Shown here: positions 6,001 through 39,124 of the stretch, one piece after another | Layout: each line of letters starts with the position of its first letter | How positions within the stretch are numbered: the stretch's first letter is position 1 | Source of the DNA: an uncultured Oscillospiraceae bacterium | GTDB lineage: Bacteria > Bacillota > Clostridia > Oscillospirales > Oscillospiraceae | DNA: 39,483 nucleotides | Direction: 5' to 3' | NCBI GenBank assembly: GCA_947581795.1 | Contig: CANPVS010000018.1 | Coordinates: 1-39,483 of the forward strand | Notes under the pieces: model-generated | Databases searched by the model: none | What the model saw: only the letters and a program-made list of their open reading frames with translations | What the model was told of the DNA's origin: nothing | Position numbers and translations under genes: made by a program

Positions 6001-9000
6001 GAAGAACGGCGAGAAGCTGACCCTGGACGAGGCGCCCGTGGGCGTCACGCTCACCGTCACCGAGCTGACCCTTGACTATGGCCCGGCGCGGACCAAGGAC
6101 GACGACACAGACGCGCACTTCTGGCCCCAGGGCGGCAATAGCCAGACAAAAACGATCCCGGATACGGGCGCCTGTGCCTTCGCGTTCACCAACGTCTACG
6201 CCCCCAAGGAGGTGCTGACGCCCAACGCCGACGGCGGCAGCGGCAGGCTCATGCTGGAGAAGGTCATGGAGGGGCGTAATTTCGACGAGGACGACTTCTT
6301 CACCTTCACTATGACCGGCTCGGCCAAGACCCTGGACGGCTCCGCGGACATCGCCTGCCCCATGCCCAAGGACGCCAAAGAGGTGGGCGAAGATAAGGTC
6401 TTGACGGCCTCCGTCACCCTGGCGGGCGATGCGTATTCTAGAGAACATACCGATGCACTGGATGTACTGAAGACCGAAGAAAAATCGGTCAAGGTCGACC
6501 TATGGAACAATGAGGATGATACCCCGGAGACCGGCTGGTTCCCCCTGACCTATACCCGGCCCGGCGTCTATACCTATGTGATCACGGAAGAAGAGGGCGA
6601 GCTCGCCGGCGTGACCTATTCCACGACGAGGCACTATATCCAGATCACCGTGGAGGAGGAGAAAGGCGAAGGTGGCCGCCCCACCGGCGGGCTGACGCAC
6701 AAGGTGGAGTATCTGGACAACGCGACGGCCTCCTGGAAGACGGTCACGGATACCGACGCGGAACTGTCCTTCACCAATACCTATACCTCCAGCAGCGCCC
6801 AGTTCACCCTCACCGGCCAAAAGACGGTGACCGGCCGCGCTATCAAAGCGGCCGACGAGTTCACGTTCAAGCTGGAACCTATGGGCTGGCGTGAGCATCC
6901 CGAAGACGATGACTGGACGGCATCTATGCCGGCCGAGGGCAATTTCAAAGGCAGTGAGACCATGCCTATGCCCAACGACGCCGGTGATGGGAAGGAAATG
7001 GCGCTCCACATGCGGGCCGACGGCACCATCACCTTCGGCGATGACGGGACGGCTCCGGCCCGGGGCGTGCTGACCTTTGACCACTTCGATCTGCCGTCCA
7101 CGGATACGGGCCGCGTGAAGGGCCGTGACTTCCTCTATAAGATCAGCGAGGTCATTCCTGCGGAAGGGGACGCGGAGAAGGGCATGGACTATGATAAGGA
7201 CGCCTGCTATGTGCTCATCTATGTCTACGCGGATGATGACGCGAACGTCCAAACCGAGCTGCTGGGGGCCTATAAGGGCACAAAGAAGCTGGCTGCGGCA
7301 GAGAAAGCGGCCGAATACCAGTTCGGGTTCACCAACGAGTACACGGCCAGCGGCACCTATCAGCTCGAACTGAAAAAGGTCATGACCGGCCGCAGCTTCC
7401 AGAATGACGACAGCTTTACCTTCCGGGTGACCGGAGACGTGCTTTCCGGGCCGGGGGAGAAACATGACGTCCCCATGCCGGGTGGCGGGAAAAACGAGCC
7501 GTATGAGTACGAATTCAGGCCCTCTGACCAGAGCGGGGAAACAGATAGCGAAGAATTTAAACTGCCCGAGATCGCATATGCCCAGGAGGATATCGGCTAT
7601 ACCTACGAGTACTTCATCCGCGAGGTGAGACCGGATACGCCCCTGGTAGGCGTGACCTATTCCACGCTGATGTGGGAGGTCCGGGTCACTGTGGAAGACA
7701 AGGGCGGCGGCAAGCTGGAAGCGACGGCCACCTATATCGACCCGGAGGCGGCGACGGCGGGGGAGGCGACGAACGGCCCGGCGGTCTTCACCAACCGGTA
7801 TACCGCCGAGAGCGCCGTATTCCGCTTCAACGTGAATAAGGAGCTGACCGGCCGCGAACTGAAAGCCGGGGAGTTCCAGTTCAAGCTGGAGCCCGTGGGC
7901 TGGCGTGAGCATGAAGATGTGAGCGACGGCGAGATCTTTGACCTGACGAAGGACTTTACAAACCCTGAAGATGTCCCCATGCCGGAGGGCACGGATAAAG
8001 GCGGAACGAAGAGCGTTCCCGTCGGCGCGGACAAACAGGCCTCCTTCCCCGGCGTGGTATTTGGCCGCGACGATACCGCGGATAAGGACGCCGGTCCCGA
8101 GGCGCGGGAGACGGGCCGGGACTACCTCTATAAGATCACGGAGATAGAGCCCACCGACGGGACCGCGAAGAAGGGCGTCGTCTATGACAAGAGGGTATAC
8201 TATGCGTTGGTCTATGTGCGCGCCACACAGGACACCAGCACCTCCGGCGTCGTGGGCGCGAAGATCATGGCGAACCTCCTTGCCACGTCCGACGACGGAG
8301 TGACGCTCCATCCCACTGCCGGCACCGACGACGTAAAGCCCACCAGCTACACCGCCGAATTCAAAAACACCTATACGGCGGAGGGGGACTCTGTAAACAT
8401 CAACGTGCTCAAGACCCTGACCGGCGGCCGCAAGTTCCAGGATGGCGATACGTTCAAGTTCCAGATCACGGGGACTTGTGTCGGCAGCGAGGGGGATGCC
8501 CCCATGCCGGCGAGTGATCCGGCGAGCGGCAGCTATAACTATGACGAGGCGTCCAAGACCGGCACCTACACCCTCACCACCGGGGCGGGCGCCGGGGTTG
8601 GGAGTGACAGCGCGGACTTTGACTTCCCCGCCATTACCTTCGGCCTGGCGAATGCGGGCAGGCTCTACCGGTATACCATCACCGAGGTGGACACCAAGCT
8701 GCCCGGCGTGAGCTACTCCGGCGACGTCTGGACCGTGGACGTGCTGGTGACCGACGATGGCAAGGGGAAGGTGACCGCTGACGTTGCGTACAGCGCGCCG
8801 CGGACCATCGATGGATTCAATTCGAAGGAAGGCCCAGCAGAGTTCATCAACACATACAGCGCCGAGGATGCCTCCTTCACCTTCGACGTGACCAAGACCC
8901 TGAACGGCCGCGCCATCAATGAAGACGATGGGTTCCAGTTCACCCTGACGCCCGTGGGCTGGCGGGAGCATGAGGATATCGAGGGAAACACCTTTGACCC

Positions 9001-12000
9001 GGAGGAAAGAGAACAATTCAAAGGCATGGACGTCCCCATGCCGGGCGGAAGGAGCGAGGAGAAGACCGTCACAGCGGGCGTAGACGGCAAGGTCTCCTTC
9101 GGCAGCGTGACGTTCGGACGGAACGACACCGCGGAAGATACCGACAGCAGCGATAAGCGGGCCAAAGGCCGGGACTACCTCTATAAGATCACGGAGAAAG
9201 AGGGCAGCAGGACCAACGTCGCATATGACACCCAAGAGTACTATGCGCTGGTGCATGTGTACGCCGTGGACGAGGACGGCGTGAAGGTCAAGGCGGAGCT
9301 CCTGGCCTGGGCCAAGGGCGACAACGTTGAACTCACCACTGAGGATAAAGGCGCAAAGCCCACTGGCTACACCGCCGAATTCACCAATACATACGAGGCT
9401 GCGGCCAGTGAAAAGATCTCGATCGAGAAGATCATCACCGGCGACGGCCGCACGTTCCAGACCGGCGACCAGTTCACCTTTGAGGTGGTGGGCAGTGTGC
9501 TGGTCAGCGGGCCTGCGGCGGCGCATGGCGTCCCCATGCCGAATAGTGCGTCAGTCAACACCTATCAGTATACGTTTGAACCCGAAGAGCATGAGGCTCT
9601 GGGGCAAGACAGGTATACCTTCCAGCTGCCTGAGATCAAATATACCCAGAAGGATATCGGCTATACCTACGAGTACGCCGTCCACGAGGTGCGGCCCGCA
9701 ACGGGCGCCCTCCCGGGCGTGGTCTATTCCAACCTGAACTGGACTGTCCGGGTGGCCGTGACGTACAACGAGGAAGACGGCAGCCTGAGCACAACGGTGA
9801 CCTACGTCGATCCCACCACCGGCACGAGCGCCGTCGCCGGGGGAGGGGAAAAAGAGGGGCCGAAGGCGTCCTTTACCAACCGGTATACGGCCGAGAGCGC
9901 CGTCTTCCGCTTCAACGTGGAGAAGAAGCTGGTCAGCAACAGCGATGGTACCCCGGTCAGCCGTGCCATCAAGGACGGCGAGTTCCAGTTCACCCTGACG
10001 CCCGTGGGCTGGCGCGCCCATGACGGCACGTTCAATGTTACGGAAGGAGAATATAAAGAATCCGAGGTCGTCCCTATGCCGGACGGAAAAACCGGGGACG
10101 GAGGACCCGCTGCCGCGAGCGCGAACGCCTATGGCAGCGCGGCCTTCGGCGGCATAACCTATGTCAGGGAAGACGCTAACAGGAACAGTGCGCCCGCGAC
10201 CGGTATAGATTACCTCTATAAGATCACGGAGAAGAACACCGAAACCATAGACGGCATCACCTATGACGCCAAGGCGCACTATGTGGTGGTGTATGTATAC
10301 GCCGAAGCGGCGGACGAAGATGTGAATATCAAGGCGGAGCTCCTGGCCTGGTCCGTGGACGGCGCGGTCAAGACGCCTGGCGCTGGGGAAGAAGCGCCCA
10401 CCAGCTACACCGCCGAATTCGTGAACAAATATTCTGCCCACGCGGTGCCGGATGTGCAGATCGGCGTGAGCAAGACCCTGGAGGGCCGCGAGGCTCTGGC
10501 CACCGATAGCTTCAAGTTTGAGATCGAGAGCATCGACGGCGGGCCTCTGCCGACAGAGAATACTGACAGCTACGTCTACGATGTGGAACGCAAAGTGGGC
10601 GTCTATACGCTTACCGGCGAGCCTTGGGAGTTCGACTTCCCTGCTATCCCCTTCAACGAGACCCACGCGGGCAAGACATACCGCTATGCCATCACGGAGG
10701 TCACGGGATCGATACCCGGCATGAACTATTCCACGGACCGCTGGACCGTGAACGTGACGGTGAACGACAAGGGCGACGGCACGATGAAACCTGTCATCAA
10801 GTACGACGCGCCGCGGGTCATCGAGCCCTTTGACGAGACGAAGGGCCCCGCCCAGTTCATCAACCAGTACAGCGCCGGGTCGGGCTACTTCACCTTCAAC
10901 GTGAGAAAGACCCTGGAAGGCCGCGCCATGACCGCGGACGACAAGTTCGAGTTCACCCTGGAAGGGGTGGGCTGGCGGACGCATGCCGCGGGCGATGGGG
11001 ATACCTTTGACCCAGCGAATGTGGAAACGGGGTTCAACAAGAGCCCTGGGGATGTTCCCATGCCGAGCGGCGGCGGGTCCGCCGCCATCACCAGCACCAG
11101 CGGCGGCCGGGCCGCCGTCGGGCGGGTGGAATTCACGCGGGACGACGCCATCAGAGGCGGCGCAGAGTCCACGGACGGCGTGGATTACCTCTATAAGATC
11201 ACAGAGACGAAGGGCGAGTTGCCCAACGTCGACTACGATAAGACGGTGCACTATGTGCTGCTGCACGTATATGCCCAGAAGGCCGGGGAGAGCGGGAGCG
11301 ACGTGCAGATCGTCGTGGACCCGGAGTACTGCTGCACTGTCAAGGGCGAAACCGTGGCCGAGGTGGAGCTGTCCGACTCCGCCTATACCGCCGCGTTCGT
11401 GAACACGTACACGGCCGGGGCCGACGTGGCACTCAAGGTGCAGAAGAAGCTTGTGGGCCGCGATTTCCAGGAGGGCGACGAGTTTACCTTCACCCTGACC
11501 GGGATGACCGGGTACGAACCCATGCCGGAGGCGGCGTCCAGGACCATCAAATACGGCGACAGCGACGGCATCGTCAAAAACGGAACGCGGGAGACAGGTC
11601 CCTTTGACCTGTGCCAGATCCCCTATACTCAGGCCGACGCCGGGAAGACCTATACCTATCAGATCAGCGAGACGGCGGGGACTATTACCGGCATGACCTA
11701 TTACGCCGGCGTCTGGACCGTCACGGTCCAGGTCACGGATGACGGCAAGGGAGGCCTGTCCGCCAACGTAAGTTACAGCGCGCCGACCGGCGACAGCAAT
11801 ACGGACGCGGCGGTGTTCACCAACACCTTCACGCCGGTGACGCCGTCGGTTCTCCTGACGAAGTCTCTCGAGACCAACGGCTATTTGCTGCCGGAGGAGC
11901 TCACCTTCCAATTCCACATCGCGCCCAAGGCGGGCAACCCCAAGCCCGACCCGCTGGAGGGCGGCAGGAAGGATGTATCTGTCACCGTCAGAAAGGATAG

Positions 12001-15000
12001 CCTTTGGCTGGGACAGACGGACCTCTTTGCGGAGGTGGCTCCGTATACCAAGGAGGGTACGTATACCTACACGGTGACGGAGCAGCCTTATGAAAAAGAC
12101 GGCTACAAGATCACCACGGATGAGACGGAGCACACCGTTTCCTTTACGGTGGTGAAGGCGGGCGATAACAGCCTTATCGTCAAAGACGTCACGATAGACG
12201 GCGTTTTGTCGGCGGACCACCAGCTCATCGTCCGGAACAGTTATACCCCCGCCGATACGAGCAACTATATCAACGTGGTGAAGACCCTCTACAGCGAGAG
12301 AGACCTGACAGGCAAGGAGTTCACCATTGAACTGCGCGGTCTGCACGGCGCGCCCATGCCTGAAAAAGCTTCCGTCAGTAGCGTCATGACGGACACGGTC
12401 ACGGTGAATGTGACCGGCGCCGAGCACTTTGGCACCGGCGACCTGTGGTTTGGGCCGATTCCCTTCACGGAAGCGGGCACATACGACTACGAAGTCCGGG
12501 AGGTCATCCCCTCCGTCAGCACCAAGGAGGCGATCTACGACCACAGCATCTGGGACGTGGTCGTCGACGTGGAGGATGTGGCCGGTAAGCTGACGGCCGT
12601 CAGCACCACCTATACCCGCCGGTACGATCAGGAGAAGCCCACGTCTCCCCGTGAAGCGGCGGAGTTCATCAACTTCGTCCCCACAAAGACGGAGGTGTCG
12701 GTGAAAGGCGCCGACGTCCCCGCGGGCACGGAAGTGCTTCCCAACGCGGATGTGGGCGACAAGATCGTCTATACGATCGATTGGCGCAACGTGTTCCTGG
12801 ATAGGGCCGCCTCGGACGTGAGCGTCACGGACAGCCTGGACAAGGGCGTGGATCTCGTGAGCGCCGAGATACTGGGAGATGACGGCGCGGCGCTGCTGAC
12901 GCTCAACGCGCCCGAAAAGGAGAAGAAGGACGAGGGCAAGGGATTCGTCATCTCCTATAACGATCAGAACCGAGAGGTGACCTGGGAGCTGAAAGGACAG
13001 CCGCAGGGCGCCTCCGGAAAGGTGCGCCTCACGGTGCAGGTGAACGCCGGCGCCAGCGGCTGGGTGGAGAACGGCGCCCGTATCGGCGTGGCGGAACAGT
13101 ACGCCGCGACAAACCGGCTGTCGAACACGGTCACGCCCGGCCAGCTGAAGGTGGCCAAGGTGTTGCAGGGCAACAAGGCCGAGGCGGATAAAGACTTCAC
13201 CTTCACCCTGACCCTGCAGGACGCCGACGGCAACCCCGCCTCGGGCAAATTCGAGTATACGAAGTACGACGGGGAAGGCAATGCTATCACCCCGGAGGGC
13301 GGCGGAGAGTGGACCATCGCCACCAACGAGACGTTCACGCTGGCCGGCGGCCAGTATGTGATCCTGAAGCTGCCGGTAGGCGTCCGCTACGGCATCACCG
13401 AGAGCGGCAACGAAGGCTACGGCGTGACCATCGGTGTCCAGAGGCCCGTGGAAGGGACGCTGGAAGACGACACGGATGCCGTGGTCTCCGGCGCGGCCGT
13501 GAACGGAACGGTGCACCCGAGCCAAGGCGACGTGGTGCCCACGGTGACGTTTACCAACAAGCGCGATGGCGTCACCGGCCTGGCGCTGCCCATCCAGATC
13601 GAAAAGACGCTGAACAGCGAGGACGGCGCGCGCAAATTCAAGGACACCGACCACTTCACGTTCCTCCTGTCCGGCGATGGCCTGGAGGAAGATCAAAAGT
13701 TCACCATCGACAATGCGCTCCCGGCGTTTGTGGATGCGGTTGCTGCCAGCGGCAGCGACATCACCGCCGCGCCTGACGGCTGGACGGTGGACATCCCCGG
13801 ACCCGGCACGTATACCTATACCATCCGGGAGGCAACCCCCGCCAATGGCACGGAGACCAATCCCGTGCCCGGCGTCACCTACTCCACCCAGGTGTACACG
13901 CTCCAGCTGGATGCGGCGTACAGCACCGTGACCCCCGGCACGCTGGACGTGACGTATACGGTCATAGGGCCTGAGGGCGCCGTGACCGACGAGCCGGTCC
14001 AGGTCCGTCCGGAGCCGGAGGGCGGCGTCACCAAGACAACGCTGCCGTTCGTCAACACCTACGAGCAGGGCGAGGCCAAATTCACCTTCGCGGCGGAGAA
14101 GTCTCTCCAGCCCGCCGGACAGACCCTGACGGACGGGCAGTTCACCTTCCGCCTGACGGCGGCGGGTTCCCGTGTGCACACGGCAGGCGACGAGGCAAAC
14201 AGCGTCGTTGAGGGCTTTGCCGCGGATCCGAACCAGCCCATGCCCGCCGGCGAGATCGCCGATGATACGGGTAGATACCTGACGGCCACAAACAACGCCG
14301 ACGGCGCCGTGGCCTTCGGCGAGGTCGCCTTTACCATGGACGACGCGACGGCCGGCAAGGACTACCTCTATACCATCGAGGAGGTAATACCCGCCGAGGG
14401 CGCGGACGATTACGACTACAGCGAAGCGAAATACAATATCATCCTGCACGTGTATGCCGATGGGGATGACGTCATCTGTGAGCTGGAGCACAGCAATTAC
14501 ACGGAAAGCGGTTACCGGGCGGCGTTCGTCAACACCAGGAAGATGAACGGCGCGCTGGAGATCCAGGTCAAAAAGATCATGGATAACCGGAACTTCGAGA
14601 AAGGCGACGAGTTCGCCTTCACCATGACCGGTAAAGAGCTCAACAGCGACAGCAACGCTCCTATGCCGGAGGGTGTTGAACCGGGCGGCACATATACGAA
14701 GACCATCACGCCCGGACCTGAGAACGGCAGAGAATTCTCCTTCGCGCTGGATGCCATCCAGTTCACCCAGGCGGACGTGGGGAAGACGTATGTCTACACC
14801 GTCAAAGAGAGGCTCGATGAGCGCCCCGATATCGTGTACGACATCAAGGAGAGGAATGTCACGGTCAGCGTAGCCGCCGGGACGGATGAGGGAACTCTTT
14901 CGGTCACGGCTGTCTATCCGGCCGGCGACCATCTGGAATTCGTCAACGCGTATCAGGACGCCGGCAGCGTGGTGCGGCTCCAGGGCCGGAAGTACATCAG

Positions 15001-18000
15001 CGGCCGTGCCTGGGACGCCACCATCGACCAGAATGGCTACAGCTTTACGCTGACAGCCAAAGACAGCGCGCCCATGCCGGCTGGGGTGGTGGGGGATACC
15101 CTCACCATCACCGAGACCAGCACCCGGGCGGATGATGAGTTCAAGTATTACGGTCTGATCGACTTCGGCGCGATCGAGTACGGCGAAAAGGGAACGTATG
15201 TCTATGAGATCACGGAGAGCGGCGTGACGCCGCCCGGCGTCCGCGGGGACAGCAGGACCATCACCGCGACTGTGGAGGTCACGGAGGAAGGCGATCCCGC
15301 CGAGCTCAAGGCGAACGTGACCTACAGCGTCGGCGGAGAGATTCTCCATGACAGCGCGGGTGAGCCGGTGAAGTATTTCACCTTCACCAACGAGTACCGC
15401 AAGAACCTGACCATCGCCAAGCAGGTGACGCCCGGCGACGACGGCGTCACCGTGACCGACGATGACAAGGCGAAGCTCTTTGACTTCACCATCGTGCTGA
15501 AGGACGTCACCGGGACCCCGCTCACAGGTACCTATAATACCGTCACCGAGGGCAAGGCAGGCACGATAGAGAGCGGAGGGACCTTCCAGCTGCATGACGG
15601 CCAGAGCATCGTTATCCAGGAGCTGCCGGAGGGCACGCAGTACACCGTGGAAGAAGAACAGGCGGACGGTTTCGTGGCGGTGGGCAGCCGCAGGGTCGAC
15701 AGTACCCTGGACGAAAAGCAAGAGGTTACCTTCGTCAACGAAAAGCAGAGCCTGTTCCCGGCAAAGCTCACTCTGAACGCAACGAAATACCTGAACGGCC
15801 GCGATTTGCAAAACGGCGAGTTCACCTTCATCCTGGAGCCGGTGGCGTCCAACCCCGCGGGCGACCCCGTGAGCGCCAAGACCCTGACAAACGATGGATC
15901 CGGCGTTATCGCGGTGTTCAGCGACGCGCCCTACTCCCGGACGGGAAGATATGAATACCGCCTGTGGGAGGATATGAGCAAACTGCCCAGCGGCATCATC
16001 CCGGACGACACCATTCATACCATCGTTGTGACGGTGACCCAGGAGACCGCCAGCACCTATACGGGGCGGCTGATGCTCGCCCTCACGGTGGACAATATCC
16101 CCGTCGAGGTCACACCCGTTGTGAATACCTCCGGCGAATATGTGTACAACGCCGAACCGGCGCTCCTGTCCTTCGCGAATACATACGATCCGAACTCGGT
16201 GAGCGTGGTGCTGGAGGCCGCCAAGATTTTCAACGGAGGTGACCTGCGGGACGGCATGTTCTCCGTGGTCCTGTCCGCGCTGGGCGGCCCGCCGGTAGCG
16301 ACGGCCCTGCAGGATGGGGAGCCCATCGCGGACGGAGCCGACGATACCGGCGCGGACACGGGCGAGCCATCTGACGGCGGCGATATCACGACCCCGCCGG
16401 AGGCCGACGGGGACGATAGTCCCGGGGAGGACGGCGGCGACGCGGTGACGCCCGAGGGCGACAGCGGCGCCTCCGGCGACAGTGCCCCTGAGGCGGGCGG
16501 GTCCGAAGTGACTGGATCCGACGACGGCAACGCACCCGGCGAGGGTGCGGGCGGCAGCGTGCCCGAGGAGGTCCCCGGCACGCCGGCTGAGGAACAGGGC
16601 GGCGAGGCGCTGACGGCCGCGGCCGGCCCTGAGACTGGCGACGGCACAGACCAGGCGCCTGCAGAACCTCCGGCCGGCGGCGAGACCTCCGGCGACAGCG
16701 AGGCCTCCGGCGACAGCACGACTCCCGGCGACAGCACAGACCCCGGGACCGGCGAGGACGGCGGCACGTCTTCTGACGGCGAACCGTCTGACGGCGGCAT
16801 GACCGGAACGCCTGACGGAAACGGCGAGGCTGCGCCTCCCTCCGAGGGCGAGAACACGCCTCCCTCTGAGGGCGAGAACACACCTCCCGCGGAAGGTGAG
16901 AGCACACCTCCCGCCGAGGGACTGCCCGGGACAGGACCGGCCGAAGGCGATGAGCCCGGCGGTATGGACGGTATACTCCCCGTGCCCGACCCGATGGACG
17001 GAGAGGACTCTACAGACCCCAACGGCCTGATGGCCCTGTCTGTGGATGCGTGCCCCATGCCCGGCAACGCCACGGGACCTGTGACGATCACCAACGTGGG
17101 CGGCCTGTTCCGGTTCAGTCCGATGACCTTCACGGCGGAGGGAACTTACAACTATCAGCTGTTCGAGATGGCGTCCGCTGGCAGCGGCATCGCCTATGAC
17201 CACACTATCTACAATATTCAGATCGAAGTGACAAAGGCAGGCGACGGCACGCTGCAGGCGGAGGTCAGCTACCTGAAGAATGTGGACAGCAGCTCGGATC
17301 CCGGCGACTACACGCCCATCCCCGGCGCGACCAGCGAGTTCCTCGCGTTCACCAACACCACGATCTCCAAGACGTCTGATACGGCCGGCGAGCCGGTGCA
17401 GATAGGCGACACCATCGACTATGTGATCACCTGGGCCAACTACGCGGGAGATACCGCCAATGTGACGGTCATTGACCCGCTCGACGCCGGCGTGGAGTTG
17501 ACTTACGCCACCGAAGGCTACAGCTATGAAAATCACGTCGTCACTTGGGACCTGGGCGAGCGGCCTGCGGGAGCAAACGGAGAACTGAAGCTCACCGTCC
17601 AGGTCCAAAAGGAGGCCCTGGATGCGTGGAACTATAAACTCAACGATGTGACCGGCGAGCCCGGCTTTGGTCAGGACTTCATCGTTCACAACCGGGCGGC
17701 CGTGAAGTGTGAGACCGGTGTGCCGACTGGTGCGGCCCCCATCTCCGTGATGGGCGAGGCGGCGGACGGATGGAAATACACAGAGACCGTCGACAACCCC
17801 ATCAACGCCCAGGTGCCCGGCTCCCTGACGGTCACAAAGACGGTCACCGGCTACGGCGACAAGGACAAGGCGTTCCACTTCACTGTGACGCTGAGCGACG
17901 ACAGCGTCACCGGCCAGTACGGCGACATGTACTTTGACAATGGCGTCGCTGAGTTCCAGCTGAAGCATGGCGGCAGCGTGATGGCCACCGGACTGACACC

Positions 18001-19162
18001 GGGCGTAACGTATACCGTCCGGGAGGCGGAGGCCAACCAGGACAGGTATTTGACCTATTCCACCGGCGAAACGGGGACCATCACGGCCAACGGCTCCGCC
18101 ATGGCGGTGTTCGTGAACAGTCTGACCTATGCGCCCGTGGAGCCCGGCAACGGCGATCTCATCCTGATGAAGGTCATCACCGGCAGCAACGCGGATGTCA
18201 CCCAGCGGTTCCACTTTACCATCACTCTGAGCGACCCGACGATCAGCGGCCTTTACGGCGTGGTGAACTTCACCAACGGCGTGGGTAAGATCGATATGGG
18301 CCACGGCAGCATCGTGACGGTGAGCGGCCTGCCCGCCGGCACGGGATACACGGTGACGGAGGAACCGACGCCTGGTTACGGCGTCAGGAGCATGGGTTCT
18401 TCCGGCTCCATCCCCACCAACGGCAGCGCGGCGGCGGTGTTCTTCAATGAGGTGGGCGGCGACGCCCCCGGGCCCGACTATCCCACTGAGCCCTCGCCCA
18501 GCCCCAGCACATCCCCTGAACCCAGCACATCCCCCGAGCCCAGTACATCCCCCGAACCCAGTACATCCCCCGAGCCCGGAACAACGCCCGAGCCTGGGAC
18601 AACGCCGCAGCCCGGAACCACACCGCAGCCCGACGGACGGCCCCACAAGGTGGAGACGGCCCCCGGCGCCGGCGTGGAGGTGACGGCCGGCCAGTGGCTC
18701 ACCTATGAGATCATCTGGGAGAACTACACCGGCGAGGCGGCGGCCGTGACGGTCCGCGACCCGCTGGATCCCGGCCTGACATTTGTCAATGCCTCCGGCG
18801 GCGGCGTGTACGACAGCGCGAACCACACGGTCACCTGGGCGCTGGGCGAGCAGCCCGCGGGCGCCAGAGGGTCCGTGACGCTGACGGTCAGCGTGAACGA
18901 GACCGCTCAGATCAATGGCGCTGTGCTGAACATGGCGTATGTGAAGGTGGGTCCCAACGCGGAACAGAGCACCGAGGGGATAGTGAACCCGCTGCCTGTT
19001 CCTGCCACAGCGGCGCCCACGGCTGCCCCCGGCAGGCCCGGCAGTCCCGGCAGCCCCAAGACCGGCGACGACACGGCGATCATCCCCTGGCTGGCCCTGC
19101 TGGTCATATCCCTGGCGGGCTTTGGCCTGGTGGCCGCCGCCCGGAAGCGGAAAAGGCGCTGA
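86..19162 (+). CDS. Giant sortase-anchored adhesin made of pilin-type isopeptide modules, 5'-truncated
   Basis: A very large surface protein of 6358 codons from the first ATG. The frame is open back to position 26, but this ATG has no ribosome-binding site and no signal peptide follows, so the true N-terminus is probably lost upstream. Order by residue: an unrecognised beta-rich region (1-425); an SdrD/CnaB-like domain (about 427-557); a CnaB domain (653-842); a SpaA-like domain (846-974); then about 24 FctA/Spy0128-like modules from residue 978. These are interrupted by DUF11-like (about 4200 and 5757) and DUF7601/CnaB-like modules (about 4352, 5106, 5912, 6023). The typical module has Lys in a KxLxGR strand, Glu in a YxIxE strand and Asn in a final FxNxY strand, the triad of intramolecular Lys-Asn isopeptide bonds. 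A Pro-rich linker, a last DUF11-like module, SPKTG (6323-6327), a hydrophobic helix and a RKRKRR tail close the protein. Likely role is adhesion; ligand unknown. No sortase gene is in the window. Confidence 0.9.
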   Translation: MYYKSVKDIANDNNFKRMGIKYTYPGTPDTDSVKGCMVFFEEPSEDLRGVLYKTAVKPDQASNVHFLGKLPDDRVGTYVAMGGTFSFEVGEATTASLRLEFRLPLDEFKDATMGTGKTGYEKASGYTVSVDTGDTKVTFTPIDGSGNEGTYTYDIKGESDNKYVEMAPVELSTVVTPHAENYINWPGRDGNGIPIPAGTYSTDELVYSVTPKAGEIHFPLFDMEFAKKGITITRVSPIYDVNGEQLSGRKDGGIEDTPSTNIFEATKSVVYYDDTPIYYGEKGASTGKGENEVIDQPGKQSDGVTSDNYWMYQNMNPIGGGEYAVRTAEGIKAYVSDNKLRIGDHSSLNNHVEYYDAKGDLSTNVDQVAIAYLDSAKYPLGKASGSSGAANSYRGTVTDYGIANYWTFLPGQTFQASGKETITIEAGDVFNLTGRVFYDEDTDGAGKNHPNGKYQPQNDIGDHTLSGVKVNLYKLYEDLSEDEKKNAEKYTYFTYDSASGTFKKNENKENNYALIGSTVTDASGNYTFSGLAYTEAAEGTGKRYAVEVVSPYDVYTVPSSIVHGDPEKVVVNSNNSTSTSYTGNYFMYAYDGTATGTEVQLIKVGGEDGVDPTKRASKKFQGENPQIDGKTVDYTNTTRTVTAIDVGFHYGKMSTSLTVEKVWNMNDDTGTAPGVVLEISYCTTDGDKGVYQEVSLAAITKTSYTDNFLPDQVKSEGRTVDVKEYYVSAEYYIEGGAIYRHQFNYNPNIGANEYASLLGTCTKLAVDALTGKYTLDWTAPGDDGFTSFTQLPDANGDGARNASDLMSLQDSTYWTDGSGTKYTGTIDRYIGPSDTEITVTNSENKGTIEVYKYSGALGLTEAKLMGATFRLWQLGEAGFTGDFTNTVEIKAALDLAEKEWDPQSTRKNGRVVFANLDPTKTYILEEMFPPAGYQIIQKYYLVQPTRTPEAQDQFKFSFGNNGENACLVKAQNKQSGDGLKVRKAITGRAWLTGEEYIILLGDVNYVMESAPETENGNVDDSLEAATNAFKEEFREPREIKISQSSDTYADRTNTTSASSDTRISDQLLNSCPTEINEDEGTITVTDHIDGAKLCGVPFPAAGTYTVRLAENYPATEERVAAMTYSTWVYEVSIQVSRVDETGAPSTDRDGTHLEASISQVTFWELELGPEDTPEKKMADDPPTAKLPFTQAYPVFTNTYTVAPASQETGYAVVKEFEGRTGLNENVWLDPVEGVEGSGDHFSFTVTGADDATNLALQEKNLVIGAFAPADEDEEAVGKTSFDIVMDKDTRDTLGVLHSFRFESLDFDNVQFPVQYTLLRKGTDGTHEGDLVTVKENEYPSETYTEEQWEIKSTETLPVEYRLSITENIPEGDSYGITYDQTEYILKITLKNVEDEAPEAAAVTSPDGAEDDGIIEEMTFEIYQSKDSEGVSLITPEKTDGNLYSKCVTEQRVLKDGDTNKKTWLDEGKGEDGWTDEDGWSYYHDPDNPSITFRKKATHDVNEAGEPQSKPGDDDFQEHHNFTFKNIYNAAPVKWEPEITKELTGRDWLTDDEFTFLMTVNATGATAEEKEPFSIDGDPYKDGEGHEQPNTRKITIYGAGSGETRTGKFPTITFNKAGTYELTFQEIASKGAGISYTGKDSAFAELNYTVTVTDNNKGALEIKVSPQGTSDSFDTSEINPTFVNVFSATGEIDLTILKRLEGREWKDTDKFTFIVKPGDDMKKAIGTLVDGSTDKHVITMPESLHLESDGTYTGTLDGATAGTSPIIPNGRTQSLGSIQFNYDPEFYNKTEGKTYTFTVEEKTPEDLTLSPFPKSMTVTVTVKNKAVDGLPGGSLDVMASYAYYNDRIDDEITDESSSSLVLPFTNTVVNKDGVTISKTVTTPTPPVLTAGGELLNDTDKIKEYINDLEFRFQLRAVTGGTALLTGTIWNGTIAKKDGTTEIFSARFDTDPASGGSKVTYTRGGETGKDYFVLKNGEKLTLDEAPVGVTLTVTELTLDYGPARTKDDDTDAHFWPQGGNSQTKTIPDTGACAFAFTNVYAPKEVLTPNADGGSGRLMLEKVMEGRNFDEDDFFTFTMTGSAKTLDGSADIACPMPKDAKEVGEDKVLTASVTLAGDAYSREHTDALDVLKTEEKSVKVDLWNNEDDTPETGWFPLTYTRPGVYTYVITEEEGELAGVTYSTTRHYIQITVEEEKGEGGRPTGGLTHKVEYLDNATASWKTVTDTDAELSFTNTYTSSSAQFTLTGQKTVTGRAIKAADEFTFKLEPMGWREHPEDDDWTASMPAEGNFKGSETMPMPNDAGDGKEMALHMRADGTITFGDDGTAPARGVLTFDHFDLPSTDTGRVKGRDFLYKISEVIPAEGDAEKGMDYDKDACYVLIYVYADDDANVQTELLGAYKGTKKLAAAEKAAEYQFGFTNEYTASGTYQLELKKVMTGRSFQNDDSFTFRVTGDVLSGPGEKHDVPMPGGGKNEPYEYEFRPSDQSGETDSEEFKLPEIAYAQEDIGYTYEYFIREVRPDTPLVGVTYSTLMWEVRVTVEDKGGGKLEATATYIDPEAATAGEATNGPAVFTNRYTAESAVFRFNVNKELTGRELKAGEFQFKLEPVGWREHEDVSDGEIFDLTKDFTNPEDVPMPEGTDKGGTKSVPVGADKQASFPGVVFGRDDTADKDAGPEARETGRDYLYKITEIEPTDGTAKKGVVYDKRVYYALVYVRATQDTSTSGVVGAKIMANLLATSDDGVTLHPTAGTDDVKPTSYTAEFKNTYTAEGDSVNINVLKTLTGGRKFQDGDTFKFQITGTCVGSEGDAPMPASDPASGSYNYDEASKTGTYTLTTGAGAGVGSDSADFDFPAITFGLANAGRLYRYTITEVDTKLPGVSYSGDVWTVDVLVTDDGKGKVTADVAYSAPRTIDGFNSKEGPAEFINTYSAEDASFTFDVTKTLNGRAINEDDGFQFTLTPVGWREHEDIEGNTFDPEEREQFKGMDVPMPGGRSEEKTVTAGVDGKVSFGSVTFGRNDTAEDTDSSDKRAKGRDYLYKITEKEGSRTNVAYDTQEYYALVHVYAVDEDGVKVKAELLAWAKGDNVELTTEDKGAKPTGYTAEFTNTYEAAASEKISIEKIITGDGRTFQTGDQFTFEVVGSVLVSGPAAAHGVPMPNSASVNTYQYTFEPEEHEALGQDRYTFQLPEIKYTQKDIGYTYEYAVHEVRPATGALPGVVYSNLNWTVRVAVTYNEEDGSLSTTVTYVDPTTGTSAVAGGGEKEGPKASFTNRYTAESAVFRFNVEKKLVSNSDGTPVSRAIKDGEFQFTLTPVGWRAHDGTFNVTEGEYKESEVVPMPDGKTGDGGPAAASANAYGSAAFGGITYVREDANRNSAPATGIDYLYKITEKNTETIDGITYDAKAHYVVVYVYAEAADEDVNIKAELLAWSVDGAVKTPGAGEEAPTSYTAEFVNKYSAHAVPDVQIGVSKTLEGREALATDSFKFEIESIDGGPLPTENTDSYVYDVERKVGVYTLTGEPWEFDFPAIPFNETHAGKTYRYAITEVTGSIPGMNYSTDRWTVNVTVNDKGDGTMKPVIKYDAPRVIEPFDETKGPAQFINQYSAGSGYFTFNVRKTLEGRAMTADDKFEFTLEGVGWRTHAAGDGDTFDPANVETGFNKSPGDVPMPSGGGSAAITSTSGGRAAVGRVEFTRDDAIRGGAESTDGVDYLYKITETKGELPNVDYDKTVHYVLLHVYAQKAGESGSDVQIVVDPEYCCTVKGETVAEVELSDSAYTAAFVNTYTAGADVALKVQKKLVGRDFQEGDEFTFTLTGMTGYEPMPEAASRTIKYGDSDGIVKNGTRETGPFDLCQIPYTQADAGKTYTYQISETAGTITGMTYYAGVWTVTVQVTDDGKGGLSANVSYSAPTGDSNTDAAVFTNTFTPVTPSVLLTKSLETNGYLLPEELTFQFHIAPKAGNPKPDPLEGGRKDVSVTVRKDSLWLGQTDLFAEVAPYTKEGTYTYTVTEQPYEKDGYKITTDETEHTVSFTVVKAGDNSLIVKDVTIDGVLSADHQLIVRNSYTPADTSNYINVVKTLYSERDLTGKEFTIELRGLHGAPMPEKASVSSVMTDTVTVNVTGAEHFGTGDLWFGPIPFTEAGTYDYEVREVIPSVSTKEAIYDHSIWDVVVDVEDVAGKLTAVSTTYTRRYDQEKPTSPREAAEFINFVPTKTEVSVKGADVPAGTEVLPNADVGDKIVYTIDWRNVFLDRAASDVSVTDSLDKGVDLVSAEILGDDGAALLTLNAPEKEKKDEGKGFVISYNDQNREVTWELKGQPQGASGKVRLTVQVNAGASGWVENGARIGVAEQYAATNRLSNTVTPGQLKVAKVLQGNKAEADKDFTFTLTLQDADGNPASGKFEYTKYDGEGNAITPEGGGEWTIATNETFTLAGGQYVILKLPVGVRYGITESGNEGYGVTIGVQRPVEGTLEDDTDAVVSGAAVNGTVHPSQGDVVPTVTFTNKRDGVTGLALPIQIEKTLNSEDGARKFKDTDHFTFLLSGDGLEEDQKFTIDNALPAFVDAVAASGSDITAAPDGWTVDIPGPGTYTYTIREATPANGTETNPVPGVTYSTQVYTLQLDAAYSTVTPGTLDVTYTVIGPEGAVTDEPVQVRPEPEGGVTKTTLPFVNTYEQGEAKFTFAAEKSLQPAGQTLTDGQFTFRLTAAGSRVHTAGDEANSVVEGFAADPNQPMPAGEIADDTGRYLTATNNADGAVAFGEVAFTMDDATAGKDYLYTIEEVIPAEGADDYDYSEAKYNIILHVYADGDDVICELEHSNYTESGYRAAFVNTRKMNGALEIQVKKIMDNRNFEKGDEFAFTMTGKELNSDSNAPMPEGVEPGGTYTKTITPGPENGREFSFALDAIQFTQADVGKTYVYTVKERLDERPDIVYDIKERNVTVSVAAGTDEGTLSVTAVYPAGDHLEFVNAYQDAGSVVRLQGRKYISGRAWDATIDQNGYSFTLTAKDSAPMPAGVVGDTLTITETSTRADDEFKYYGLIDFGAIEYGEKGTYVYEITESGVTPPGVRGDSRTITATVEVTEEGDPAELKANVTYSVGGEILHDSAGEPVKYFTFTNEYRKNLTIAKQVTPGDDGVTVTDDDKAKLFDFTIVLKDVTGTPLTGTYNTVTEGKAGTIESGGTFQLHDGQSIVIQELPEGTQYTVEEEQADGFVAVGSRRVDSTLDEKQEVTFVNEKQSLFPAKLTLNATKYLNGRDLQNGEFTFILEPVASNPAGDPVSAKTLTNDGSGVIAVFSDAPYSRTGRYEYRLWEDMSKLPSGIIPDDTIHTIVVTVTQETASTYTGRLMLALTVDNIPVEVTPVVNTSGEYVYNAEPALLSFANTYDPNSVSVVLEAAKIFNGGDLRDGMFSVVLSALGGPPVATALQDGEPIADGADDTGADTGEPSDGGDITTPPEADGDDSPGEDGGDAVTPEGDSGASGDSAPEAGGSEVTGSDDGNAPGEGAGGSVPEEVPGTPAEEQGGEALTAAAGPETGDGTDQAPAEPPAGGETSGDSEASGDSTTPGDSTDPGTGEDGGTSSDGEPSDGGMTGTPDGNGEAAPPSEGENTPPSEGENTPPAEGESTPPAEGLPGTGPAEGDEPGGMDGILPVPDPMDGEDSTDPNGLMALSVDACPMPGNATGPVTITNVGGLFRFSPMTFTAEGTYNYQLFEMASAGSGIAYDHTIYNIQIEVTKAGDGTLQAEVSYLKNVDSSSDPGDYTPIPGATSEFLAFTNTTISKTSDTAGEPVQIGDTIDYVITWANYAGDTANVTVIDPLDAGVELTYATEGYSYENHVVTWDLGERPAGANGELKLTVQVQKEALDAWNYKLNDVTGEPGFGQDFIVHNRAAVKCETGVPTGAAPISVMGEAADGWKYTETVDNPINAQVPGSLTVTKTVTGYGDKDKAFHFTVTLSDDSVTGQYGDMYFDNGVAEFQLKHGGSVMATGLTPGVTYTVREAEANQDRYLTYSTGETGTITANGSAMAVFVNSLTYAPVEPGNGDLILMKVITGSNADVTQRFHFTITLSDPTISGLYGVVNFTNGVGKIDMGHGSIVTVSGLPAGTGYTVTEEPTPGYGVRSMGSSGSIPTNGSAAAVFFNEVGGDAPGPDYPTEPSPSPSTSPEPSTSPEPSTSPEPSTSPEPGTTPEPGTTPQPGTTPQPDGRPHKVETAPGAGVEVTAGQWLTYEIIWENYTGEAAAVTVRDPLDPGLTFVNASGGGVYDSANHTVTWALGEQPAGARGSVTLTVSVNETAQINGAVLNMAYVKVGPNAEQSTEGIVNPLPVPATAAPTAAPGRPGSPGSPKTGDDTAIIPWLALLVISLAGFGLVAAARKRKRR
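6800..11830 (+). repeat. Five alternating A-B couplets of isopeptide modules within the adhesin
   Basis: Two module types alternate strictly. Type A (starts near 6800, 7814, 8870, 9899, 10882) carries a GWR(E/A/T)H motif, a long loop and a YLYKI(T/S)E strand. Type B (starts near 7354, 8387, 9408, 10451, 11421) is shorter, usually has a GRxFQ-type start, and has a GVxYSxxxWxVxV strand. Each couplet is about 950-1060 bp. The pattern points to duplication of a two-module unit rather than of single modules. Boundaries are approximate and were read from motif positions. Confidence 0.8.
16318..17046 (+). other. Asp/Gly/Ser/Pro/Glu-rich insertion inside the last pilin module of the adhesin
   Basis: About 240 residues of low-complexity acidic sequence (runs such as SGDSEASGDS and TPPSEGEN) interrupt the last FctA-like module. 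The module starts at about 16198 with VSVVLEAAKIFNGGDL and resumes at CPMPGN near 17051. The insertion sits in the loop that precedes the PMP motif found in most other modules, so the flanking beta-strands can still fold together. It is probably a disordered extension or stalk. Confidence 0.75.
16835..16921 (+). repeat. 24-bp tandem repeat encoding PP(S/A)EGE(N/S)T
   Basis: Three full 24-bp units (16835-16858, 16859-16882, 16883-16906) and a partial fourth encode the octapeptide PPSEGENT with S/A and N/S variation. They lie in frame inside the acidic insertion of the adhesin, so copy-number change would not shift the frame. Confidence 0.8.
18503..18628 (+). repeat. Seven 18-bp repeats encoding a Pro-rich wall-spanning linker
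   Basis: Seven 18-bp units encode PSTSPE four times, then PGTTPE or PGTTPQ. They lie between the last CnaB-like module and the final DUF11-like module of the adhesin. Such Pro-rich repeats usually extend a protein through the cell wall. The units are in frame and closely similar, so slippage could change the linker length. Confidence 0.85.
19052..19159 (+). other. C-terminal cell-wall sorting signal (SPKTG)
   Basis: The adhesin ends with SPKTGDD (residues 6323-6329), a hydrophobic stretch from IIPWLALLV to GLVAAA, and the basic tail RKRKRR. This is the three-part layout of a sortase substrate. The motif has Ser in place of the Leu of LPXTG, a variant seen in clostridial sortase substrates. 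Confidence 0.9.
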
Positions 19163-19301: not shown

Positions 19302-22061
19302 TCACTTGCCCGTCAGGTCCTGATACATCTCCATCAGTCTGGCGACGCAAATGGACTCCGTCGTATCCCGGACAGAGAAGCCATATGCCTGCATCACGGC
19401 CCGGTCGTTCTCCTGGTGGGCGCGGCGAAGCTCCGGGGGCATGGTGATCTCGTCGTACAGGTCGGCCAGGCTGGCGTCGGGGTATAGGGCCCGGGCGTCC
19501 AGGATGGCCTGGGCGGTGCGCTCGATCCGGGCCCGCTGTTCCTCCGTGGGCGTGGGCCAGGGGAAGTTGTTGTAGACCACAGTATTGGAATAGCGGTAAC
19601 GCATTTCAAGACGGCCACATACCGCTCTCATCCAGGCGTTGTGAATGTTTGATGTAAGTATACCAAAATGGTATATAGTTGCGTTGGGAATGACTTTTAC
19701 GAGGTTACTGCATAAGGTCTCCGGAGTCAAAAACCCCATAGGAACATACCGGCGCTTTTCAGATGAAACTTCAGGAACGACGATAAATGTACCCTTGGAA
19801 ATATTCGTAAATGCAAACTCTCGCGGTGTATCAGCTAGTTCCCTCGTTACAGCCCTCTTGCTGGATAGACGAAATTTTCGTACTTCTTCGACCCGTTTAC
19901 AACACTCGGGCAATTTCCGCAGTTCTGTCGGTGTACACTCTCGGAGATAAAGAAAGAATCGTGGAATGCTGTTGATGAATTCCTTCGAGCCTATCCAAGG
20001 GCGAAAGTATTGTGCCGAATCAGGTTCAGCCCGAATGAAAGCATCTTTTTCTTCTGTGGAAAACGAGTAAAAACCGCCATCTATTGGTTGATTGCCTAAG
20101 CTCATTGCAGGCACGTCGCACAGCGGTTTGCTGCGGCTCTCAATAAAAATACAGGGGGCATCCAGCAGGTAACCGTTGATATTGCTTGCTATTTGTGGCC
20201 GTTCAGAGGAATAGATGATCTTGGGCGCGGGGTTCGGCGCGATACTGAAGCCTACGATGACACAGTGGACATGGGCTTTGAGCTTGGCTTCGCTGTCCCA
20301 GCGGAAGGTGCGGTGGGCAAAGTCGATATGTATGCCCTGGGCAAAGAGCGGCTTCCATAGGTCGGCCACCGACTCCCCCTGGGTCACGGAGTTGGTGGAG
20401 ACCAACGCCGTGCGTATCGCCGTGCCGGCCATCAGGTCGGCAGCCTTTTTGTACCAGCAGCACACATAGTCCAGGTTTCCGGCGTTCTTCCAGCCGGAGA
20501 ACACGCCATTCAGGTCGCCTTTTTGCTGCTCGCTCATAAGGCGCGCCCCCACGAACGGCGGATTGCCCATAATGTAGTTCAGCCGCTCTTTCGGTACCAC
20601 GCTCTCCCAGTCCAGCCGCAGGGCGTTGCCCTCCACGATATGGGCGTTGGTCTTCAGGGGCAGGAAATCCAGGTCGTGGCGGACGATGGCCTCCGTCTCC
20701 CGCATCATCTGGCTCTCCGCTATCCAGAGGGCGGACTTGGCCACGGTCACGGCGAAATCGTTGATCTCGATGCCGTAAAACTGGCCGATGGAGACGCGGA
20801 TGGGGTTTTCGATATCCCCCAGGACCACCTGGCCGTGGAGCCGGGCGGCGATGGCCTCGTTCTCCAGCCGCCGCAGGCAGAGGTATGTCTCGGTCAGGAA
20901 GTTCCCCGAGCCGCAGGCCGGGTCCAGGAACGTGAGGGCGGCCAGCTTCTCCTGAAAAGCGGCCAGCCGGGCCTCGCGGGTCCTCTCCAGGCCGATGGCC
21001 TCGATCTGGGCGAATTCCGCCTTCAGGCCGTCCAGAAACAGCGGGTCGATGACCTTGTGGATGTTCTCGATGCTGGTGTAGTGCATGCCGCCGGCGCGGC
21101 GGGTCTCCGGGTTCAGGGTGCTCTCGAACACGGCGCCGAAGATGGTGGGGCTGATGCCGGACCAGTCGAAGTCCTCGCTGGCCTGCCGCAGCAGCAGGTC
21201 CACGATGCCGTCCGTGATACGGGGGATGATGACGCTCTCGTCAGAGAACAAGCCGCCGTTGACGTAGGGGAACGCCAGCAGGTCCTCGTCCAGATAGGGG
21301 TCCCGTCCCTGGTCTGTGTCCAGGACGCGGAACAGGTCTATGAGCGCCTGGCGGGCGTTGGACCGCCGGCGGGCCAGGTAGTCATGGAACTGCCTGCGGG
21401 CGAATACGCCGGCGTCCTCCGCGTAGAAGCAGAACACCAGCCGCACGCAGAGGATGTTGAGGCTCCGCTGCCAGTCCGGCGGGGGGGGGGTAGAATTATT
21501 GTACTGTTTCAGCAGCGCGTCGTAGAGAACGCCCACGATCTCTCCGGCTTTCAGGGAGACCTCCATCTCCTTCTGAATGTGCTCATCCTTCGTGTCCACG
21601 AGAAACTGCAGCCGGGGGTATTCCTTTTCCAGGTCCGCCAGCCGAAGCACCTCCGGCTCGTCGTTGGGGCGGTTCATGTCGTGTATCTCGAAGGTCCGGA
21701 AGTTGCAGACGACGATCCAGCGGGGGTTCCGGTCGTGGGGCAGATACCCGGCGTAGCGCCGGGCCTGCTGGAACGGAGTCAGGAAGGAGCCGTCCGACTG
21801 GGACGCGCCCTTGTGCAGGTCCACGTCCCGGCCCTTCTGCTCAATGAGGACGCGGGTGTCCCGGATGAAGCCGTCGATGAAGCTGGTGTGGTCCAGTTTC
21901 ACAGGGACCTCAAAGTCGATGTATTTCTCCGGCTCGGCCACGCCGTAGACTTTTTGCAGCAGCGCCAGCCAAAAGGACTGCGTTTCCTGCTTTTCGTCGC
22001 CCCGGCCCTGCCAGTCGGCGGAAAACTGCCGGGCGGCGGCCCGTCTCTCCTGGTCAGACAT
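19302..22061 (-). CDS. MmeI-like (type IIL) restriction-modification enzyme
   Basis: A 919-residue bifunctional DNA methyltransferase/endonuclease, the length of MmeI itself. Near the N-terminus D63, E74 and K76 (IDGFIRDTRVLIEQK) match the D-X(9-10)-EXK nuclease motif of the MmeI family. The methyltransferase core has motif I DPACGSGNF (about 378-386) and the NPPF motif (about 496-499) of N6-adenine methyltransferases. The target-recognition region is about 615-820, followed by the family's C-terminal helical domain (from about NNFPWPTPTEEQ). No separate restriction or specificity gene is nearby, as expected for one-gene systems. Start: ATG after AGGGGGA, downstream of a near-consensus promoter. 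Oddities are a C10 tract at codons 191-194 and a low-GC recognition region. The family call is confident; the recognised sequence cannot be read from here. Confidence 0.9.
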   Translation of the reverse strand: MSDQERRAAARQFSADWQGRGDEKQETQSFWLALLQKVYGVAEPEKYIDFEVPVKLDHTSFIDGFIRDTRVLIEQKGRDVDLHKGASQSDGSFLTPFQQARRYAGYLPHDRNPRWIVVCNFRTFEIHDMNRPNDEPEVLRLADLEKEYPRLQFLVDTKDEHIQKEMEVSLKAGEIVGVLYDALLKQYNNSTPPPPDWQRSLNILCVRLVFCFYAEDAGVFARRQFHDYLARRRSNARQALIDLFRVLDTDQGRDPYLDEDLLAFPYVNGGLFSDESVIIPRITDGIVDLLLRQASEDFDWSGISPTIFGAVFESTLNPETRRAGGMHYTSIENIHKVIDPLFLDGLKAEFAQIEAIGLERTREARLAAFQEKLAALTFLDPACGSGNFLTETYLCLRRLENEAIAARLHGQVVLGDIENPIRVSIGQFYGIEINDFAVTVAKSALWIAESQMMRETEAIVRHDLDFLPLKTNAHIVEGNALRLDWESVVPKERLNYIMGNPPFVGARLMSEQQKGDLNGVFSGWKNAGNLDYVCCWYKKAADLMAGTAIRTALVSTNSVTQGESVADLWKPLFAQGIHIDFAHRTFRWDSEAKLKAHVHCVIVGFSIAPNPAPKIIYSSERPQIASNINGYLLDAPCIFIESRSKPLCDVPAMSLGNQPIDGGFYSFSTEEKDAFIRAEPDSAQYFRPWIGSKEFINSIPRFFLYLRECTPTELRKLPECCKRVEEVRKFRLSSKRAVTRELADTPREFAFTNISKGTFIVVPEVSSEKRRYVPMGFLTPETLCSNLVKVIPNATIYHFGILTSNIHNAWMRAVCGRLEMRYRYSNTVVYNNFPWPTPTEEQRARIERTAQAILDARALYPDASLADLYDEITMPPELRRAHQENDRAVMQAYGFSVRDTTESICVARLMEMYQDLTGK
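19600..20220 (-). other. Low-GC island covering the target-recognition region of the MmeI-like gene
   Basis: Hand counts of 60-base lines give about 38-53% GC between 19621 and 20220, against about 68-73% in the lines at 19501 and 20881 of the same gene. The island corresponds to residues about 614-820, where MmeI-family enzymes carry their DNA-recognition domain. The sharp change inside one intact gene suggests recombinational replacement of the specificity module. Confidence 0.75.
21481..21490 (-). repeat. C10 homopolymer inside the MmeI-like coding frame (possible phase-variation tract)
   Basis: Ten consecutive G on the plus strand, read as C10 in the gene, span codons 191-194 (Thr-Pro-Pro-Pro). 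The frame is open in this copy. A gain or loss of one base would truncate the protein before the methyltransferase core. Confidence 0.8.

Positions 22062-36994: not shown

Positions 36995-39124
<2,130 letters not shown>

Follow-up and report, generated by a model that had tools for sequence, protein, structure and literature searches.

Campylobacter and Helicobacter already provide examples of Type IIG enzymes whose genes contain G or C tracts. For Cj0031 of Campylobacter jejuni, PMC4889913 reports that nine G residues leave the gene ON and that ten turn it OFF, and for Cj0031/Cj0032 it describes restriction and methylation in one chain, switched jointly by a G homopolymer of 9-10 bases that is found in some alleles only. 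For the Type IIG enzyme JHP1272 of Helicobacter pylori (HP1353-HP1354), PMC3936762 describes a C homopolymer coding for PPPP that switches the enzyme on and off, and compares the recognition region of JHP1272 with that of MmeI. Here we analyse a stretch of 39,483 nucleotides (the window; contig CANPVS010000018.1 of assembly GCA_947581795.1, from an uncultured Oscillospiraceae bacterium) that encodes an MmeI-family Type IIG/IIL restriction enzyme-methyltransferase, with a run of ten C residues inside its gene. Judged from sequence, this C10 tract is very probably a slipped-strand ON/OFF switch of restriction and methylation, ON in this copy, and part of a larger poly-G/C phasome. The locus resembles the C. 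jejuni genes in its joint control of two activities in one chain and in the presence of the tract in some alleles only, and the H. pylori gene in its proline-coding C homopolymer. It differs from the former in the kind and place of the tract, which is poly-G at position 2573 of 3732 bp there and poly-C at position 572 of 2760 bp here, where it separates nuclease from spacer, and in its host, a Clostridia relative that possesses mutS and mutL. It differs from the latter in that the H. pylori gene, as described in PMC3936762, has a second tract that alters specificity, while one tract was seen here.

Comparable tract sets and switches have been described more widely. According to PMC6321876, 52% of Campylobacter tracts are 9G and 30% are 10G, with a cut-off of 7 applied to poly-G/C tracts; the Campylobacter phasome thus resembles the one reported here in its many poly-G/C tracts, mostly of 9 and 10 bases, mostly in open reading frames (ORFs) and including restriction-modification genes. 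What sets the present tracts apart is a shared A-C9-purine context with an A/T box, which was assessed in this genus and not in Campylobacter. The G-tracts of Bifidobacterium breve pilus genes are likewise intragenic slippage switches in a gut commensal, although those described in PMC9187656 concern one or two pilus clusters per genome and no restriction-modification gene. The poly-C tract of mga in Group A Streptococcus is a slippage switch in a Bacillota organism, but one confined to a single regulator gene (PMC10330708). Tract switching in MmeI/Type IIL enzymes, in Oscillospiraceae, in gut Firmicutes or in Clostridia was not recognised among the search results listed from the open-licence literature. 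The enzyme switch belongs to a known kind and is new in its lineage; the phasome is new in its shared context.

The enzyme gene occupies 19302..22061 on the minus strand, as do all features of the gene given below. Its frame, which begins with ATG and is open throughout, encodes 919 amino acids, assigned by Pfam, PADLOC and structure match. All five MmeI Pfam domains occur in order in one chain and above cut-off, giving the full MmeI-type architecture: the MmeI_N nuclease domain (residues 9-186, 21504..22037; PF20464, 9.6e-37), the MmeI_hel spacer domain just downstream of the tract (residues 200-272, 21246..21464; PF20465, 1.6e-21), the MmeI_Mtase domain (residues 361-617, 20211..20981; PF20473, 1.1e-87), the MmeI_TRD target recognition domain (residues 635-837, 19551..20159; PF20466, 4.6e-72) and the MmeI_C domain (residues 840-917, 19311..19544; PF20467, 1.2e-21). 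The PADLOC Type IIG model covers residues 1-918, and the solved structure of MmeI (PDB 5hr4) is matched over residues 5-917 with an E value of 1.6e-189, a homologue over almost the whole length with identical domain order. The motifs LIEQKG, LDPACGSGNF and NPPF, which we take to be the catalytic nuclease and methyltransferase motifs, align with those of MmeI and are kept. Enzymes of the MmeI family cleave about 20 bases away from their site and methylate adenine on one strand. MmeI differs from the enzyme described here in having an alignment gap where the residues coded by the tract fall, which places the tract in a variable linker that immediately follows the nuclease domain and would tolerate extra prolines.

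The tract itself, at 21481..21490, is C10 on the coding strand and G10 on the plus strand, with C on its left and TA on its right in the plus-strand orientation. It begins at zero-based offset 571 of the coding sequence and forms part of codons 191-194 (ACC CCC CCC CCG, followed by CCG). Directly 5' of it stands TA (21491..21492), a flank common to most long C tracts of the genome, and directly 3' stands GC (21479..21480), G being at +1 in 24 of the 33 long tracts of the genome. C10 is the longest homopolymer of the window, the only other runs of at least 7 being one G7 and one A7. The first-pass annotation had placed the tract, in frame, between the nuclease and methyltransferase domains and had predicted that a change of one base would remove the methyltransferase and recognition domains, and the position of the tract is confirmed; MmeI_N is the only one of the five domains 5' of it. 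When its length was changed in silico, C9 led to a stop after 240 amino acids and C11 to a stop after 226.

These properties suggest how a switch would operate. Slippage during replication, presumably reversible, would add or remove one C. With the tract in frame, as in this copy, the whole enzyme would be made and the cell would both methylate and restrict; one base off, translation would continue for about 32 to 46 codons past the tract and then stop, leaving little more than the nuclease domain. As such a product would have neither a methyltransferase nor a recognition domain, it is expected to be inactive, so that restriction and methylation would be lost together and phage defence and DNA methylation would change with them. 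GTG and TTG codons at positions 206, 209 and 271, 3' of the tract, are candidate internal restarts that would yield a methyltransferase without nuclease.

The decisive evidence for a switch comes from the same site in related enzymes, compared among 35 genomes of the same genus, one per species, including the window's own genome (G000). The enzyme was matched in 17 of the 35, its own included, and the linker was covered in 13 of these. Three of the 13 have a long C run in the linker: C10 in the window and C9 in both G031 and G013. In G031 and G013 the frame is split exactly at the C9, and both halves are open without inner stops; the two pieces are 87.2% and 80.2% identical to the window enzyme in G031 and 65.5% and 66.5% identical in G013. 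Tract length therefore differs between species and moves the frame, C10 being in frame and C9 out of it. The proposal of the first-pass annotation that the tract could make the enzyme phase-variable is thus supported by the MmeI architecture, the predicted truncation and the out-of-frame C9 alleles of two congeneric genomes. Neither of the findings that it named as refuting emerged: the length is not invariant between species, and relatives without the tract have other linker residues rather than four prolines in mixed codons. One-piece alleles that cross the linker without inner stops were found in G001, G003, G006, G018, G021, G022 (two copies) and G029, while the G012 allele stops at a contig edge and that of G009 is a fragment. 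The G007 allele has no run in the linker; its frame breaks near codon 250, at an A-C7-G run (L122:1128-1134) that is possibly a second tract site in the enzyme gene. When the window gene is compared with the out-of-frame allele of G031, the ratio of nonsynonymous to synonymous substitution is 0.12 for residues 1-185, 0.16 for 205-360 and 0.14 for 361-620, values that would fit constraint on the gene, although they may largely record the time before the OFF state arose.

The tract is also one of many. G000 comprises 2,286,560 bases in 62 contigs (84% complete); with overlaps counted and both strands taken together, C8 matches 77 times and C9 41 times. By exact length there are 3 runs of eight, 25 of nine, 8 of ten and none longer, so that poly-G/C tracts of at least 9 bases total 33, the MmeI tract among them; runs of exactly seven followed by A or T number 17, seven-base runs followed by G not being counted. 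The spectrum of G031 is similar, with 4 runs of eight, 22 of nine, 8 of ten and one of 11. Long runs are in excess genome-wide, with a mode at nine that is not expected from a geometric tail. At six places the tracts of the two genomes coincide within a long flank match (1206-1510 nt aligned), and at three of the six, the MmeI gene included, their length differs. A repeat family carrying C9 does not suffice as the sole cause, because 36 of the 63 tracts of G000 and G031 were left after removal of those with alike flanks, and these lie in unrelated genes. Among the 35 genomes of the genus the number of runs of at least 9 ranges from 0 to 45, compared with 0 to 15 in 25 genomes of other genera, which indicates that a large tract set marks some species and not the whole genus. 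C runs reach a length of about 29 in G032 and G005; some of these very long runs are clustered, some lie near contig ends and most lack the A flank, and they are possibly assembly artefacts and a class distinct from the tracts of 9-10 bases.

Tracts lie in or beside genes for glycan synthesis, surface proteins, regulators, transporters and peptides resembling ribosomally synthesised and post-translationally modified peptides (RiPPs); as in Campylobacter, long G/C tracts are overabundant, have their mode at 9-10 and occupy surface, restriction-modification and regulatory genes. Apart from the RiPP-like genes, these classes derive from a Pfam scan of 20 proteins or pieces at 19 tracts, chosen from ORFs reaching a tract, 17 of which gave a family. 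The families comprise an AraC regulator, two cytidylyltransferases, an HMGL-like protein, two substrate-binding proteins, a radical SAM protein, DUF4422, glycosyltransferase 2, a MazE/AbrB-like protein, a histidine kinase, a dicarboxylate symporter, a xanthine permease, a choline-binding protein and FkbM methyltransferases from three genes; one of these genes is represented by two pieces, only one of which has a match. Several of the genes have the tract at the end of the ORF and not inside it. Of the FkbM-like genes (L152:2136-3026, L151:7985-8867 and L151:4362-5264), two have G9 in frame and one has G10 out of frame.

The long tracts share more than their length, the common context being A-C9/10-purine with an A/T box at +8/+9. 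For runs of at least 9, A stands at -1 in 32 of 33 tracts of G000 (TA in 21 of the 33) and in 29 of 30 distinct tracts of G031, whereas it does so in only 4 of the 17 C7 runs of G000 (Fisher p 8e-8 against 32/33). The flank is also frequent in G014 (43/45), G027 (26/28) and G003 (13/13) and, among the matches listed, in G033 (13/14), G007 (6/7) and G029 (4/4); it is weak in G018 (5/10) and, again among the matches listed, in G028 (7/24), G005 (5/16), G032 (6/15), G004 (5/11) and G019 (2/6). In the 36 non-redundant tracts of G000 and G031 the frequency of A/T at +7 to +9 is 0.86, 0.78 and 0.83. We then used as a validation set 19 tracts from G027, G014 and G003 (64 before filtering), which resemble neither one another nor the first set. 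In 16 of the 19, A/T occupies two or more of the positions +7 to +9, compared with 53 of 144 C5-C7 runs of the G000 and G031 stretches (Fisher p 1e-4) and with 60 of 178 C4-C7 runs from the same stretches as the validation tracts (p 3e-5); A/T occupies all three in 6/19 compared with 13/178 (p 0.004), and A is at -1 in 16/19 compared with 35/178. A/T at +8 and at +9 thus held up (0.84 each). A/T at +7 alone (0.47) and C at +2 (2/19, compared with 20/36 in the first set) failed in these 19 tracts. The MmeI tract of the window has TA before it, GC after it and A/T at one of the three box positions, and the G031 allele has A/T at two.

The switch as we propose it is founded on the anatomy of the gene, the truncation obtained in silico, the out-of-frame alleles of sister species and the genome-wide length mode, and it has to be weighed against a number of contrary observations. 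Dinucleotide shuffles of the window gave 8.07 overlapping C8 matches where 3 were observed, and of 20000 trials in which synonymous codons were shuffled within the gene, 2643 (13%) restored C10 there, so that the tract alone is not significant and the argument from its sequence alone is weak. Chance in a GC-rich gene is accordingly not rejected by the gene taken alone, but it is unlikely at genome scale, given the length spectrum. The linker has no homopolymer longer than 5 in any of the 80 best relatives listed from other genomes (60-76% identical), nor in the eight of ten relatives on viral contigs that cover it, and such a tract is absent from 10 of the 13 congeneric genomes in which the linker could be compared. 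The pairwise substitution ratios may mostly reflect time before the OFF state, and identity at fourfold sites between G000 and G031 is 0.74-0.83 over residues 1-620, so that the presence of the C run in both says little about selection. The outcome of the codon shuffles and the many relatives without the tract would suit a proline-rich linker of a GC-rich gene that drifted neutrally to C10, the broken relatives being ordinary decaying genes, and restriction-modification genes do often decay. Such drift nevertheless appears quite unlikely: of the three broken alleles, two are interrupted exactly at C9 in the same site and one at a C7 run, their pieces contain no additional stops, and the genome-wide mode lies at nine. 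The genus is represented by draft genomes of 40-350 contigs, and since Illumina reads are troublesome on G tracts, as noted in PMC9187656, differences of a single base carry an assembly risk. Were the C9 alleles of G031 and G013 products of assembly or sequencing error, the gene would always be in frame; we regard this as very improbable, because the length excess at nine spans many genes in at least two genomes and because the G007 allele breaks at a mere C7.

A further difficulty for a slippage switch is that mismatch repair is expected to slow it. MutS_I and MutL_C are found in long open frames in both G000 and G031, and genus-wide in 32 and 34 of the 35 genomes, respectively. Loss of mismatch repair commonly goes with phasomes without defining them; here it is ruled out as the cause of the many tracts, and switching may be slower than it would be in its absence, unless the context matters. 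The presence of these genes, together with the narrow hold on lengths of 9-10, would agree with programmed frameshifting, in which RNA polymerase or the ribosome slips on the tract and every length gives a mixture of products without mutation (a soft switch), and the RNA-DNA hybrid is nine base pairs long, the same as the mode. Transcriptional slippage, however, is known mainly on A/T runs, and the tracts show no fixed offset, the FkbM-like genes being in frame with G9 and out with G10 while MmeI is in frame with C10 and out with C9; we regard a soft switch as very improbable. The context raises the different idea that the tract and its flanks (WA-C9/10-R, followed some 8 bases further downstream by an A/T box) form a dedicated site for a protein that either fixes or alters the tract length or binds there for some other purpose. 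The A at -1 in five genomes (G000, G031, G014, G027 and G003), rare at the C7 runs of G000, and the enrichment of both A and box in the validation set speak for such a site, but the MmeI tracts have the 5' flank with a weak A/T box, several genomes of the genus have C9 runs without the A flank, and two elements of the pattern failed in validation; we consider a site of this kind unlikely. It is similarly doubtful that tract-rich members of the genus have targeted switching, with dedicated length-changing machinery acting at these sites despite mismatch repair and with the MmeI switch as one client. If they do, phase variation would be directed by sequence and not by homopolymer length alone. 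The shared context makes passive slippage and directed switching distinguishable by experiment.

A slipped-strand switch of the MmeI enzyme would cause phage defence, DNA uptake and the methylome to differ between sister cells. A 2025 review (PMC11868660) calls the apparent restriction to pathogens of genomes with many phase-variable loci a major question and suggests that it may stem from database bias. The nearest named relatives of the enzyme, among the matches listed, belong mostly to uncultured Oscillospiraceae and related Clostridia, and their records suggest a gut habitat. A tract-rich phasome in a Clostridia genus that apparently lives in the gut and has mismatch repair genes speaks to that question.

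The tract alleles do not appear to descend from a single clonal origin. In a tree of residues 1-185 (89 rows retained from the window and 93 loci), G000 and G031 are sisters (98/86, bootstrap not settled), whereas in a tree of residues 260-919 (39 rows retained from the window and 41 loci, with 30 of the best 80 relatives used) the three tract alleles fall on three separate branches; mosaic inheritance is likelier, with G013 unplaced. Identity between G000 and G031 is 88% in the methyltransferase and 69% in the target recognition domain and C-terminal part, and the greater divergence of the recognition domains suggests exchange. Directly after the tract, in residues 205-360, the proportion of nonsynonymous differences is 0.05 and 0.08 among tract alleles and 0.18-0.20 to three alleles without the tract, with G007 between (0.14). 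The tract and spacer thus probably travel as a block through recombination, as far as these comparisons indicate. None of ten other products of the window lies beside the enzyme in nine stretches of relatives, with the exception of a 26% recombinase match in L009; a shared genomic place is ruled out by these differing neighbours, which indicate that the enzyme gene has moved. Near the end of the window lies an ORF that resembles a serine recombinase by eye (37011-38681, minus strand), likely part of a mobile element.

Other tract-bearing genes were noted by eye. Small RiPP-like ORFs recur (L149:2463-2699; L082, L157, L158 and L155) with G9 or G10 about eight codons after the start and with leaders that look to be of the double-glycine type; some are in frame and some are out, and they could form a phase-variable set of peptides. 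One small RiPP-like piece has a Nif11-leader match below cut-off (17.5 versus 32.3 bits), and no RiPP family was matched in the other two small ORFs scanned. In G031 a G10 tract (L221:2631-3534) lies in a second gene that looks like a DNA methyltransferase, right after a DPPY-like motif, and the reading frame differs between the parts on its two sides. In the window, at 86-19162 on the plus strand, is a giant repetitive surface-like protein of 6358 amino acids with repeats that look like Cna-B, and a similar-looking giant ORF on contig C25 (L143) has a G9 inside and another tract near its start.

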